Source: Nakamurella aerolata (lineage in GTDB: Bacteria > Actinomycetota > Actinomycetes > Mycobacteriales > Nakamurellaceae). Taken from it: a stretch of DNA of 64,000 bases. This document shows, piece by piece, positions 19,534 to 23,871 of the stretch; positions within the stretch are counted from its first letter, which is position 1; each line of letters opens with the position of its first letter. The translations under genes were made by a program, and so were the position numbers. The notes below the pieces were generated by a model. That model ran no database searches. It had not been told where the DNA came from and saw nothing but the letters and a program-made list of their open reading frames with translations. The DNA lies in NCBI RefSeq assembly GCF_013002705.1, contig NZ_JABEND010000002.1, forward strand, positions 124,001 through 188,000, in the 5' to 3' direction.

Positions 19534-19912
19534 AGCCCCATCTGTGAGTGCGCCATCGATTAGCGAGACGGCTAAGAGGGTGGCAGGAATCGCTCAATCG
19601 GCCCGGAATCGCTTAACTGGCAACGGGTTTGATCGTGCGACAGCATGCTGGCCCTGGTGGAACGTGGCCTACGAGCCCGACGGCGAGTTCTCGGTCTCCC
19701 GACCCCCTGACCTGTTCGTGTTGAGTGCCGCGACCCTGCATCTGGCTGTGCGGCCGTCGTTCGGTGGGCGGCGGCCGACCCCCATCCGAGCGGCCGGTGC
19801 GGGCATTCGAAGAAAAGTTCGAAAAACTGGGTTATAACTTATGCGGGACTCCGCTGCCCTCGGTAGACTGAGGGAAGAAAGGCGAGACTGGGATGCGGTG
19901 AGGGGAGGGCTC
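19534..19912 (+). other. Intergenic region, lower GC, no supported gene
   Basis: About 380 bp between the iminopeptidase and the DUF222 gene. A 150-codon frame crosses it but overlaps the pip coding end in another frame and has no domain or ribosome-binding site. Two TTCGAA boxes (19806 and 19818) and a TATAAC -10-like hexamer (19833-19838) lie close to the DUF222 gene and could be its promoter. Confidence 0.4.
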
Positions 19913-21883
19913 ATGGCGGCAATCGCGGACGTGATGCAAGCCGGCTCCGCTTGCGTGCGGCGCGACTCGGGTGAGGGGCTCGGCATGTCCAGTGCCAGCC
20001 CACCCGCCGCTGCTGACACCGGCGCGGCCGCCGACGCCATCGCCCAAGCCTGCGCGGAGTTGACCGCATTGTTGGCCGGTGCCGCAGCGTCACCGGACCG
20101 GGCGGCAGCTGTCGACCGGCTCGCCGCTCTCGAGCAACTGGTCGGTGCGGCCAACGGCGCGATCGCCGCTCAGTCACTGGCCTTTGCCGAGGCCGAGCGC
20201 GCCAGACAGGTCGCCGCCGGCGTCTCCTCCCGCCAGCTCGGCCGCGGAGTGGCCGAGCAGATTGCCTTTGCGCGCAGGATGTCGCCCGCCGCGGCAAGTC
20301 ACCAGCTCGGCGTCGCCCGCGCCCTGCGCGATCGGCTGCCGCAGACGTTTGCGCGCCTCAGGGAAGGGGAGCTGTCCTTGGCCCAATGCCAGATCGTCTG
20401 CCGTGAAAGCTCTTCGCTGGAAGATGAGCAGGCTCGGCTCATCGACAACGGACTTGCCGGCCAGCTGCATGGCTGGAGCCTGCAACAGACCGAACAAGCT
20501 GTGCGCCAGGCGGTCTACACGCTCGATCCGCACGGCAGCGTCGACCGGCGAGCGCGAGCGGCCAAGCAACGACGGGTCACCATTCGACCACTACCCGATG
20601 CCATGACGATGATCTCCGCGCTACTTCCGATGGAGCTCGGGGTCGGCATCTGGACCAGCCTCACCCGGCAGGCCGAGCATGCGATCGGCGTCGGCGACGA
20701 ACGCACCAAAGATCAACTCCGGGCCGACGCGCTCGCCGAGCGGCTGCTCAGCTCAGCACATGAACCTGCCGCTGGCCTCACCCTTGTCAAAGACGCTGAG
20801 GTGAGTGGCTCTCACATTCCGAAGCAGAGCGACGCAAGCGGTGGTCGAAACGCTGCGCATGCCAACGACTCTGAGCCCGGTTCCGATCCGGCCTGCCAAG
20901 CCCGCTCGGACGCGCCTGGTCAGCGTGCTCACCGGGCCGACCGCACGCCGGGAAGACGTTCATCAGATTCCGATACGTCGGTTTCCGTGATCCCGCCGGC
21001 GCATCATGGTGGTGCTACCTCAGAGTCTGCGACAGCAGAACCTGAGACAGAGTCTGCGACAGCAAAACCTGAGGCCCCGGCGTCACACCCCACCGCCCGG
21101 CGCTCCGACCCCGCCGAACCACCTGCGGGCGAGAATGATCCACCACGTCTACGGCGCAGATCCCCGCTGTACGAGCGCTTCGGCGATGCCCAAGCCACAC
21201 CGCTCGCATCGGCCGAGGGTTCGGTTCCCCGGCCGCCCAATCTCGACGTGCACCTCGTCATCGTGATGACGGCAGACACCCTGCTCGGATACAGCGACCG
21301 GCCCGCCAAGCTGGACGGTTACGGACCCATCCCGGCTGAACTGGCTCGCGACTTCGCCTCCGGAGACTCCCTGCACCGCAGAGACAACAGCGCCGTCGTG
21401 GGCAGCAGAGACAACAGCGCCGTCGCAGCCAGCAGTCCCGCAGACAGCAAAGACAACAGCGCCGTCGTAGACGGCAACGGCGCACTCGGCAGCGCGAAGA
21501 GCTGGCGGCGGGCCAAGGTGCGGCTCACCAGGATGCTCGTCGACCCCATCGACGGCGTCCCGGTGGGCATGGACGCCCGCCGCCGCGACTTCACCGGCGT
21601 GCTGCGCGAGCTGGTGCTGCATCGCGATCCGCAATGCGCCCAACCATTCTGCTCCGCACGGTCCCGCCATGCCGACCATGTTGTGCCCTACGCCGCCGGC
21701 GGTACCACCACGCTGGAGAACGGCCAGGGCCTGTGCGCGTCCGGCAACTACGTGAAAGAGATCCCGGGTTGGCGCACCGAGCGGCGGCGCCAGGGCACGG
21801 TCGTCACCACGCCAACCGGGCACCGATATCTCACCGAACGCACCCCGCCATTGGGCCTGCCGCCCAAGGCTTGGCGGCTGTAG
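19913..21883 (+). CDS. DUF222/HNH endonuclease-domain protein (13E12 repeat family)
   Basis: 656 residues. The DUF222 region (about 25-280) contains RLAALEQLVGAANGAIAAQS and the conserved AKQRRVTIRPLPDAM; a long variable linker follows; the C-terminal HNH motif reads RSRHADHVVPYAAGGTT with NGQGLCASGNYVKEIPGW. ATG 19913 follows a strong GGGGAGGG ribosome-binding site. Such proteins are multicopy in actinobacteria and behave like mobile or domesticated nucleases; their function is not established. In the C-terminal knuckle the second Cys of the common CxxCNY pattern is Gly (CASGNY). The linker carries two sets of direct repeats. Confidence 0.82.
   Translation: MAAIADVMQAGSACVRRDSGEGLGMSSASPPAAADTGAAADAIAQACAELTALLAGAAASPDRAAAVDRLAALEQLVGAANGAIAAQSLAFAEAERARQVAAGVSSRQLGRGVAEQIAFARRMSPAAASHQLGVARALRDRLPQTFARLREGELSLAQCQIVCRESSSLEDEQARLIDNGLAGQLHGWSLQQTEQAVRQAVYTLDPHGSVDRRARAAKQRRVTIRPLPDAMTMISALLPMELGVGIWTSLTRQAEHAIGVGDERTKDQLRADALAERLLSSAHEPAAGLTLVKDAEVSGSHIPKQSDASGGRNAAHANDSEPGSDPACQARSDAPGQRAHRADRTPGRRSSDSDTSVSVIPPAHHGGATSESATAEPETESATAKPEAPASHPTARRSDPAEPPAGENDPPRLRRRSPLYERFGDAQATPLASAEGSVPRPPNLDVHLVIVMTADTLLGYSDRPAKLDGYGPIPAELARDFASGDSLHRRDNSAVVGSRDNSAVAASSPADSKDNSAVVDGNGALGSAKSWRRAKVRLTRMLVDPIDGVPVGMDARRRDFTGVLRELVLHRDPQCAQPFCSARSRHADHVVPYAAGGTTTLENGQGLCASGNYVKEIPGWRTERRRQGTVVTTPTGHRYLTERTPPLGLPPKAWRL
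21021..21467 (+). repeat. Two sets of in-frame repeats in the DUF222 linker
   Basis: Set one is a 27-bp tandem duplication starting at 21021 and 21048 (cagagtctgcgacagca...), encoding ESATAEPET and ESATAKPEA. Set two is three copies of agacaacagcgccgtcg (within 21381-21398, 21408-21425, 21450-21467), encoding DNSAVV. Both lie between DUF222 and HNH and keep the frame. Confidence 0.85.
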
Positions 21884-21957: not shown

Positions 21958-21972
21958 CGCTATCGATAGTCT
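21958..21972 (+). promoter_or_regulatory. merR promoter with palindromic operator overlapping -10
   Basis: CGCTATCGATAG (21958-21969; palindromic core CTATCGATAG) overlaps the -10 hexamer TAGTCT (21967-21972). The start ATG at 21980 is 7 bases after the hexamer, so the message is probably leaderless. TGGCTC at 21944 gives a 17-bp spacer as a weak -35. The same 12-mer with the same geometry occurs before the divergently placed methyltransferase gene at 23829. Confidence 0.6.
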
Positions 21973-21979
21973 TACTTTC

Positions 21980-22639
21980 ATGCGCATCGGTGAACTGGCA
22001 AAGCAGTCCGGAGTGCCGGCCGCGACCATCAAGTACTACGTCAGGGAAGGTCTGCTGCCCGCCGGTGAATCCACCGGCTACAACCAAGTCGACTACACCG
22101 ACGCCCACCTGCGCCGGCTGCGGCTGGTGCGGACGCTGATCGACATTGGCGGCCTGCCCGTTGCCGTGGTCCGCGAGGTGCTCAGCACGCTCGACGCCGA
22201 TGATGCTTCCCTGTTCCACCTGATGGGCGTCGCACAGCAGGGCACCATCGCGCATCGGGAGCTGCACAACGACGATGCGGAACGCCGCGCCAAAGACCTC
22301 GCCAACCAACTGGTTTCCGACAACGGCTGGCAAGCCAAAAAGAAGAATGCTGCGTACGGCGCACTCGTCGAGGCGATCGCCTCCTTGATCCGCATCGGCA
22401 GAGAAGACCTGCTGCCACTGCTGCCGGCATATGCCCAGGCTGCCGAAACGGCCGCCGCCGCCGACATCGCAGTCACCCTCGGCGATGTGACAACACCAGG
22501 GGAACACGGAGTGGCGAAGGAGCAGATCATCGAGCGGGTCGTCGCGGGCACCGTGCTTGGCGACCGCATGATCGCAGCCATGCGCCGCCTCGCGGCAGAA
22601 GCACACAGCCGGCGGGCACTGGCGCGACGCCGGCACTAG
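21980..22639 (+). CDS. MerR-family transcription regulator
   Basis: 219 residues. The N-terminal winged helix MRIGELAKQSGVPAATIKYY, then the wing REGLLPAGESTGYNQVDYTD and a dimerisation helix. The C-terminal half is helical with no Cys metal-sensing loop, so it probably senses an organic ligand. ATG 21980 begins exactly at the family start. It is convergent with the DedA/methyltransferase pair, with 28 bp between stops; shared operators suggest it controls both itself and that pair. Confidence 0.88.
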   Translation: MRIGELAKQSGVPAATIKYYVREGLLPAGESTGYNQVDYTDAHLRRLRLVRTLIDIGGLPVAVVREVLSTLDADDASLFHLMGVAQQGTIAHRELHNDDAERRAKDLANQLVSDNGWQAKKKNAAYGALVEAIASLIRIGREDLLPLLPAYAQAAETAAAADIAVTLGDVTTPGEHGVAKEQIIERVVAGTVLGDRMIAAMRRLAAEAHSRRALARRRH

Positions 22640-22667
22640 CGCCAACGTCCGCCGACGCAGCTCCCTG

Positions 22668-23213
22668 CTACCCGCCACCGAGCAGACGAGCGGCCGAACC
22701 CCCGAGCGTCAGCTCCAACGTCACCCACACGGTCGCGGCCGGCACCGACGCGGCAGCTACCGGCCATGGTCGAGAACCTCTGCGCCCCACCACATTCGGC
22801 ACCACCGACCGCAGGTACGGCACAAACCGTGCCAGCCCGACGGCCAACCAGCCATGACGTGCGGCGAAGGCGTCGGCCCTGTCCATCGCTCCTCGCAGCC
22901 GTGCGGGTCGTCCCGCCGGTCGGCGCTTGGGTGCCGATAGCCGCGTGGTCCGCATCGCCGCCGGCACTCGCAACCGCGGCCCGAGAAACACACCGAGTAG
23001 GTCGCCGGCGACGCACCCCGCAACGCAGCACGCCAGCACCACCCAGAACGTCGGTCGGCCAACGGTCAACCCGCCGAGGATCAGCAGCAGCGCGGCGCTT
23101 GGCATCAGAATGCCTGCAGGAGAACTGGTTTCCGCCACCAAGCAGGTGACGGCGAGCACCGCGATCACCCACGGGCCCCAGGACCCGACCGCGTCAGCCC
23201 ATCCGGCCAGCAC
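22668..23213 (-). CDS. DedA-family (SNARE-associated) membrane protein
   Basis: 181 residues with four to five hydrophobic segments. ETSSPAGILMPSAALLLILGGL carries the conserved Glu and Pro of the first re-entrant helix, and FVPYLRSVVPNVVG the conserved Arg-Pro pattern of DedA proteins, which act as lipid scramblases or polyprenyl-phosphate flippases. GTG 23213 is chosen because GAGGA lies 8 nt upstream; it overlaps the 3' end of the methyltransferase by 20 bp, indicating translational coupling. It is shorter than typical DedA proteins (about 200-220). Confidence 0.78.
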   Translation of the reverse strand: MLAGWADAVGSWGPWVIAVLAVTCLVAETSSPAGILMPSAALLLILGGLTVGRPTFWVVLACCVAGCVAGDLLGVFLGPRLRVPAAMRTTRLSAPKRRPAGRPARLRGAMDRADAFAARHGWLAVGLARFVPYLRSVVPNVVGRRGSRPWPVAAASVPAATVWVTLELTLGGSAARLLGGG

Positions 23214-23829
23214 CGGCGAGTCCTCGACCGCGCAAGGTGAATACCTCTGCCGGGGGCAAATTGCTGGCAACGACCGCCCGATGGGCCGTCCGGAACTCGC
23301 GGCAGAAGTTCTGCAGCAGCACCCGGTTCGCCGCGCGCCGTTCCCGGGTTCGTCTGCCGAGCACCCGATCGGTGGCAACCGCTCCCAGGTAGCGGAACCA
23401 CGTCAGGGTGCCGCCATCGGCCAGCTGGCGCCGCAAACACCCCAGCACGGCCCGCACCTCGGCGGTCGGAAGATTGGCAAAGGGTATGCCGCAGACGACG
23501 AATGGGAAAGGGCCGCCGCTCAGCGCGGCATCCTGCACTGCCGCCGGATAAACGCTGACCTGCGGGTAGCGCTGCGCCAGCAGCCGGGCGAACCGCTGGT
23601 TGGGCTCCACGGCGGTGACGCTGGCCCGCGGCGCACGCCGCAGCAGCATCCGCGTCACCGCTCCAGTGCCTGCACCCACCTCGAGAATGCGTCCGCCGGC
23701 CGGCAGCTCGGCCGCAGGCAACGCGAGCCGGGCGGCGAGTTGGCGTCCGCTCGGGGTGACCGAGCCGATGGCGGCGGGCTGCCGCCGGGCCTGGCCGGCG
23801 TAGATCCAACGATCAAGGGCTTGAGTCAT
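23194..23829 (-). CDS. SAM-dependent methyltransferase, phospholipid N-methyltransferase-like
   Basis: 211 residues, class I fold. SAM motif ILEVGAGTGAVTRMLL, acidic motif AVEPNQRFA and a later motif CGIPFANLPTAEV that resembles the SGLP/PF motif of PmtA-type phosphatidylethanolamine N-methyltransferases and of rRNA dimethyltransferase relatives. Pairing with a DedA gene favours a lipid substrate. ATG 23829 has AGGA 5 nt upstream. The promoter carries the MerR-type palindrome. The substrate is inferred. Confidence 0.65.
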   Translation of the reverse strand: MTQALDRWIYAGQARRQPAAIGSVTPSGRQLAARLALPAAELPAGGRILEVGAGTGAVTRMLLRRAPRASVTAVEPNQRFARLLAQRYPQVSVYPAAVQDAALSGGPFPFVVCGIPFANLPTAEVRAVLGCLRRQLADGGTLTWFRYLGAVATDRVLGRRTRERRAANRVLLQNFCREFRTAHRAVVASNLPPAEVFTLRGRGLAGAGRMG

Positions 23830-23836
23830 CACGATC

Positions 23837-23871
23837 CTATCGACATCGACGCTATCGATAGCGACACTATC
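23837..23871 (-). promoter_or_regulatory. Promoter/operator of the methyltransferase-dedA pair
   Basis: A perfect 14-bp palindrome CGCTATCGATAGCG spans 23850-23863. Reading toward the gene, it overlaps a -10 TAGCGT (23849-23854), the same arrangement as at merR. CTATC half-sites on the plus strand lie at 23837, 23852 and 23867, exactly 15 bp apart, suggesting more than one bound dimer. Confidence 0.6.

Follow-up and report, generated by a model that had tools for sequence, protein, structure and literature searches.

An SCO5550-type MerR regulator and a PmtA-like methyltransferase/DedA operon share a predicted operator in Nakamurella aerolata

Within the 64,000-nucleotide stretch of N. aerolata DNA analysed here (the window), a merR gene (21980-22639, + strand) faces a methyltransferase/DedA operon (23829-22668, − strand), and a palindromic sequence precedes both units. 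The question raised by this locus is whether the two units, whose convergent arrangement we confirmed, form one regulated cassette that shares an operator, as the original prediction proposed, and if so what the operator consists of, which protein recognises it and what the operon it controls might do.

Pattern searches of the window recovered the predicted 12-mer, CGCTATCGATAG, as exact matches at 21958-21969 (+) and 23852-23863 (−), the sole further exact match, at 23850-23861 (+), being the methyltransferase palindrome read on the plus strand. The description of the methyltransferase promoter also held by coordinates, with a perfect 14-mer palindrome (CGCTATCGATAGCG, 23850-23863) and CTATC half-sites at 23837, 23852 and 23867, exactly 15 bp apart. 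The 10-bp core, CTATCGATAG, has exactly two copies in the 4.35-Mb genome, both at these promoters, 10 and 22 bp upstream of the two facing genes and 1.9 kb apart, while the reversed-pattern control gave no match in the whole genome. Since an iid model at 70% GC predicts about 0.7 copies of this 10-mer per genome, a single copy would be unremarkable, and the surprise lies in the placing of both copies before facing genes.

Comparison across the Actinomycetes resolved the conserved unit as GATAG-N5-CTATC. This unit was present as an exact match no more than 120 bp upstream of merR in 38 of 80 named actinomycete loci, and with at most one mismatch in 68 of them, compared with means of 0.07 (exact) and 0.1 (within one mismatch) in random 120-bp stretches of the same loci. 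In 0.95 Mb of MerR-homologue loci from many genera it occurred 48 times within 150 bp of merR versus 5 times elsewhere, and none of the other half-site spacings from 0 to 14 occurred apart from N9 (2) and N12 (35), the N12 count stemming from neighbouring GATAG-N5-CTATC units. Because the N5 spacing is almost exclusive, the unit is an inverted repeat of 15 bp, and CTATCGATAG arises where one such unit adjoins another, so the 12-mer alone was ruled out as the operator.

Both sites in the window read CTATC-GATAG-N5-CTWTC on the plus strand. The predicted merR operator, CTATC-GATAG-TCTTA-CTTTC, occupies 21960-21979 (+), with the palindrome at 21960-21969 and a one-mismatch unit at 21965-21979 (+). 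The predicted methyltransferase operator, CTATC-GATAG-CGACA-CTATC, occupies 23852-23871 (+), with an exact unit at 23857-23871 (+) and an additional CTATC half-site at 23837-23841 (+), 15 bp from the next. Three further genomes of the genus, encoding MerR proteins 36-38% identical to that of the window, likewise have the palindrome immediately ahead of merR, where it continues as CTATCGATAG-N5-GTATC or GTTTC. The palindrome itself has no orientation, and since the extended site (CTATCGATAG-N5-CTATC, or CTATCGATAG-N5-CTTTC at merR) is read on the plus strand at both cassette ends, it faces into merR at one end and away from the methyltransferase gene at the other; the idea that both sites have the same orientation relative to their genes therefore fails for the extended site. 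Sites within one mismatch of GATAG-N5-CTATC number 23 in this genome versus 9 in the reversed control; a second exact genomic copy (G000:C5:37068) is inside a coding frame and was taken as chance, as were CTATCGATAG sites away from this MerR in four other genomes of the genus (G008, G012, G014 and G015), which have no GATAG-N5-CTATC within one mismatch.

The regulator, a protein of 219 aa, is a MerR as predicted, with an N-terminal MerR helix-turn-helix (HTH; PF13411, MerR_1, E=1.5e-19), and our analysis places it in a known type. Residues 1-213 align to PDB 2DG6 (phmmer, E=9.4e-25), which we take to be SCO5550 of Streptomyces coelicolor, so homology extends beyond the HTH. Its own promoter also carries, with one mismatch, the GATAG-N5-CTATC unit that we define here as an SCO5550-type trait. 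The two proteins share the HTH and a homologous C-terminal domain over nearly their whole length, but they are not orthologues: SCO5550 controls sco5551, whereas the neighbour of the window MerR is the convergent methyltransferase-DedA operon. Where PMC5045206 refers to SCO5550, it describes a MerR-family structure whose dimerization domain differs and whose dimer has an unusual shape.

With the classical metal- and drug-sensing regulators CueR, CadR and BmrR the window MerR has in common the N-terminal HTH and a dyad operator near the promoter core; in contrast to them its C-terminal domain is unrelated, it has no cysteine and its 5-bp half-sites are only 5 bp apart. Its scores against the CadR, CueR, ZntR and SoxR equivalogs of NCBIfam were 28-36 bits, versus cut-offs of 117-168, and the lack of cysteine argues against thiol-based metal or redox sensing.

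Other genes of this type were seen in varied settings. The same genome encodes a second SCO5550-like MerR (L020, G000:C18:156126), divergent from a 138-aa membrane protein, with the half-sites TTGGATAG...CTATCCAA in a different spacing in its promoter. The GATAG-N5-CTATC unit also precedes a further SCO5550-like gene (L101), and in G339 (L235:5390-5419, G339:C18) two perfect units abut before merR, as GATAG-N5-CTATC-GATAG-N5-CTATC. Three Glycomyces loci (L150, L179 and L189) have an SCO5550-type merR with CTATCGATAG-N5-CTATC, divergent from a membrane protein, which in L150 is a DUF2306 protein. About half of the loci encode, divergently from their SCO5550-type merR, a membrane protein of about 320 aa from a family with no Pfam match, as the immediate divergent gene in 34 of 70 (for example L120, L153 and L157; loci L115-L194).

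From the gene order, the motif, its uniqueness and conservation and the family relations of the proteins, we consider it likely that the SCO5550-type MerR autoregulates and controls the PmtA-like lipid N-methyltransferase/DedA operon, the whole being a self-contained cassette. We infer that a MerR dimer binds the 15-bp inverted repeat, and abutting units (CTATC-GATAG) would place two dimers side by side. The merR operator reaches right up to the ATG and overlaps TAGTCT (21967-21972), the putative −10; if this hexamer is the −10, the merR message would begin at or beside the ATG, apparently leaderless, and the site would cover both the hexamer and that start, suiting autorepression of merR, and the genus relatives have the same operator layout. 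The operators of classical MerR regulators lie between −35 and −10. If TAGCGT (23849-23854, −) is the −10 of the methyltransferase promoter, the unit there would have its centre at about −22, a position that suits activation, with ligand-bound MerR switching on the operon. Both hexamers, proposed as −10 elements in the original prediction, fit TANNNT, but the sigma-70 scan gave no promoter match, nor is a strong −35 visible at the methyltransferase, and we keep the assignment, made by sequence inspection, as putative. Two observations weigh against the proposed model: the unit at the merR promoter has one mismatch (CTTTC), and the MerR genes of the S. albidochromogenes and S. altiplanensis cassettes (described below) lack a GATAG unit upstream, which means that not every such MerR regulates itself.

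It is quite possible, if somewhat less than an even prospect, that the MerR instead simply represses both promoters until ligand relieves it, and does not activate the operon. The overlap of the merR site with the −10 and start codon, and the missing strong −35 at the methyltransferase, would fit such a repressor; the location of the methyltransferase site near −22, if TAGCGT is the −10, speaks for activation, as does the title of the SCO5550 study, which in the form cited in PMC5045206 names the protein as a transcriptional activator of sco5551.

The enzyme under this control was predicted to be a lipid methyltransferase. The gene (23194-23829, −) encodes a class I SAM methyltransferase of 211 aa (Pfam Methyltransf_25), for which the best PDB sequence match was PmtA of A. 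tumefaciens (9ko3, phmmer E=4e-9). The AlphaFold2 model (pLDDT 84) also matched 9ko3 (Foldseek probability 1.00, TMt 0.74), one among many class I enzymes, the top Foldseek matches being CysG/BelI and NodS. Among the enzyme's leading NCBIfam scores are those for two lipid enzymes, OlsG and PmtA, though identity to PmtA/OlsG is about 20% in structural alignment and the scores are far under the equivalog cut-offs (46 versus 350 bits for OlsG, 39 versus 250 for PmtA). The GAxxPSG and GxPFxN motifs resemble, as we understand these families, those of PmtA/OlsG. Sequence and structure together make PmtA-like a fair label, and a lipid is the likely substrate: the protein would be a SAM-dependent N-methyltransferase acting most likely on phosphatidylethanolamine or a similar amino-lipid.

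Its partner gene (22668-23228, −, GTG start) overlaps the end of the methyltransferase gene by 35 bp, as in an operon. The predicted DedA identity holds in amended form, as a divergent DedA/VTT-type membrane protein just below the Pfam cut-off (VTT, 31.7 versus 33.9 bits; Streptomyces counterparts score 43-46 bits). Together the two proteins may alter the membrane when a membrane-active or lipophilic compound is encountered. An overlapping methyltransferase-DedA pair also occurs in a Streptomyces genome (G224, L236:4058-5463) with neither MerR nor operator, so the link between enzyme and DedA exists alone as well, hinting at a functional link between the two.

The same operator and cassette could also serve a methyltransferase whose substrate is a small molecule, a peptide or an RNA, as in a detoxifying or self-resistance enzyme. 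We regard this as rather unlikely. The class I fold is common to many small-molecule enzymes, including those heading the Foldseek matches, the methyltransferase has weak Erm/KsgA-like scores, and its Streptomyces counterparts have MFS and MMPL transporters as neighbours, as in drug-efflux loci; against these stand PmtA as the best PDB sequence match, OlsG and PmtA among the best NCBIfam scores, the motifs that we presume to be PmtA/OlsG-like, and partner genes that encode membrane proteins.

The shared operator of a regulated cassette was supported by comparison with other genomes. Three Streptomyces genomes (S. albidochromogenes, S. altiplanensis and G268) have a MerR gene facing that of a PmtA-like methyltransferase, with CTATCGATAG-N5-CTATC in the methyltransferase promoter. 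In the first two, where the MerR is 42-43% and the methyltransferase 36-37% identical to those of the window, this site reads CTATCGATAG-TTGCA-CTATC, and a DedA gene lies divergently across it, followed by the MFS and MMPL transporter genes; in G268 about 20 bp separate the site from the methyltransferase downstream of it. The corresponding sequence at the methyltransferase of Kitasatospora sp. SUK 42 is CTATAGATAG-TTGAA-CTACC, and in G387 an MMPL-methyltransferase operon and merR are divergent across two units. All the merR-facing methyltransferases found keep the motif, and its loss in relatives with both genes, the outcome set beforehand as evidence against the original prediction, was not seen. 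Conversely, none of 28 methyltransferase homologues away from such a MerR had a site within one mismatch in the 200 bp upstream; for eight of these the absence of MerR was checked over about 9 kb, and for the others it was taken from the differing positions of MerR and methyltransferase matches.

These comparisons bear on which protein recognises the site. Another regulator, such as a paralogous MerR or an unrelated protein, might bind it, with the nearby merR as a mere target, and the second SCO5550-like MerR of this genome does have GATAG-like half-sites in its own promoter. The spacing there differs, however, with no GATAG-N5-CTATC within one mismatch, and the motif tracks with the window's MerR subfamily across genera and is absent at methyltransferases without MerR, making such a regulator very unlikely. 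That the palindrome recurs by chance, for which only the 0.7 copies predicted from base composition speak, is hardly credible, given the genomic uniqueness of the two promoter copies, the spacing counts, the class-wide search and random-position control, the conservation in Streptomyces, and the occurrence of the 20-mer pattern CTATCGATAGNNNNNCTATC in only 3 of 394 class genomes (this one, G268 and G339), always next to a MerR of this type and, in two of the three, at the methyltransferase.

The controlled cassette has probably been acquired by this genome. The 16 further family genomes have no close relative of the methyltransferase, and a relative from the genus has retained the adjoining LCP and acetyl-CoA synthetase genes with the cassette absent, which together point to gain. 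In the MerR tree the Streptomyces cassette proteins form one clade with the window MerR elsewhere, and in the methyltransferase tree the window enzyme falls outside the Streptomyces cassette enzymes, at the end of a very long branch. A single inherited cassette is thus not supported by the trees; the association either arose on more than one occasion or dates far back and has diverged greatly. Immediately upstream of the cassette is a DUF222/HNH gene (19841-21883) with internal repeats at about 21360-21480, presumably of the 13E12-like repeat family, which may be a marker of a gene-gain site.

Finally, a regulated PmtA-like methyltransferase in an actinomycete has a precedent in the cinnamycin cluster, where cinorf10 encodes a PmtA-like phospholipid methyltransferase that makes monomethyl-PE and protects from duramycin and cinnamycin (PMC5408092). 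Cinorf10 is under two-component control (CinKR) and not that of a MerR, whereas for the window cassette we noted no lantibiotic genes alongside and the substrate is predicted. Since the cinnamycin producer regulates PE methylation as protection against a PE-binding lantibiotic, it provides a concrete hypothesis for the window cassette. As a tentative extension, one possibility among others, SCO5550-type MerRs may constitute a sensing system for a membrane-active or lipophilic compound that extends across the actinomycete class, acts through the common GATAG-N5-CTATC and has repeatedly recruited membrane effectors (the ~320-aa membrane protein, MMPL/MFS exporters, PmtA-like lipid methyltransferases and DedA), in this case for inducible lipid headgroup methylation as a membrane defence like that of cinorf10.

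This type of regulator is a known one. Our literature searches turned up neither the class-wide operator nor a link between MerR, methyltransferase and DedA; the papers listed for the motif string were all unrelated, and the operator may be partly known. What emerges is an operator, sharply defined and amenable to testing, for a MerR subfamily that is large and has hardly been studied, and a tie between this SCO5550-type subfamily and lipid-modifying enzymes. If this is right, searching for the operator could reveal target genes throughout actinomycete genomes, and the cassette would exemplify ligand-induced methylation of lipids beyond the producers of lantibiotics.
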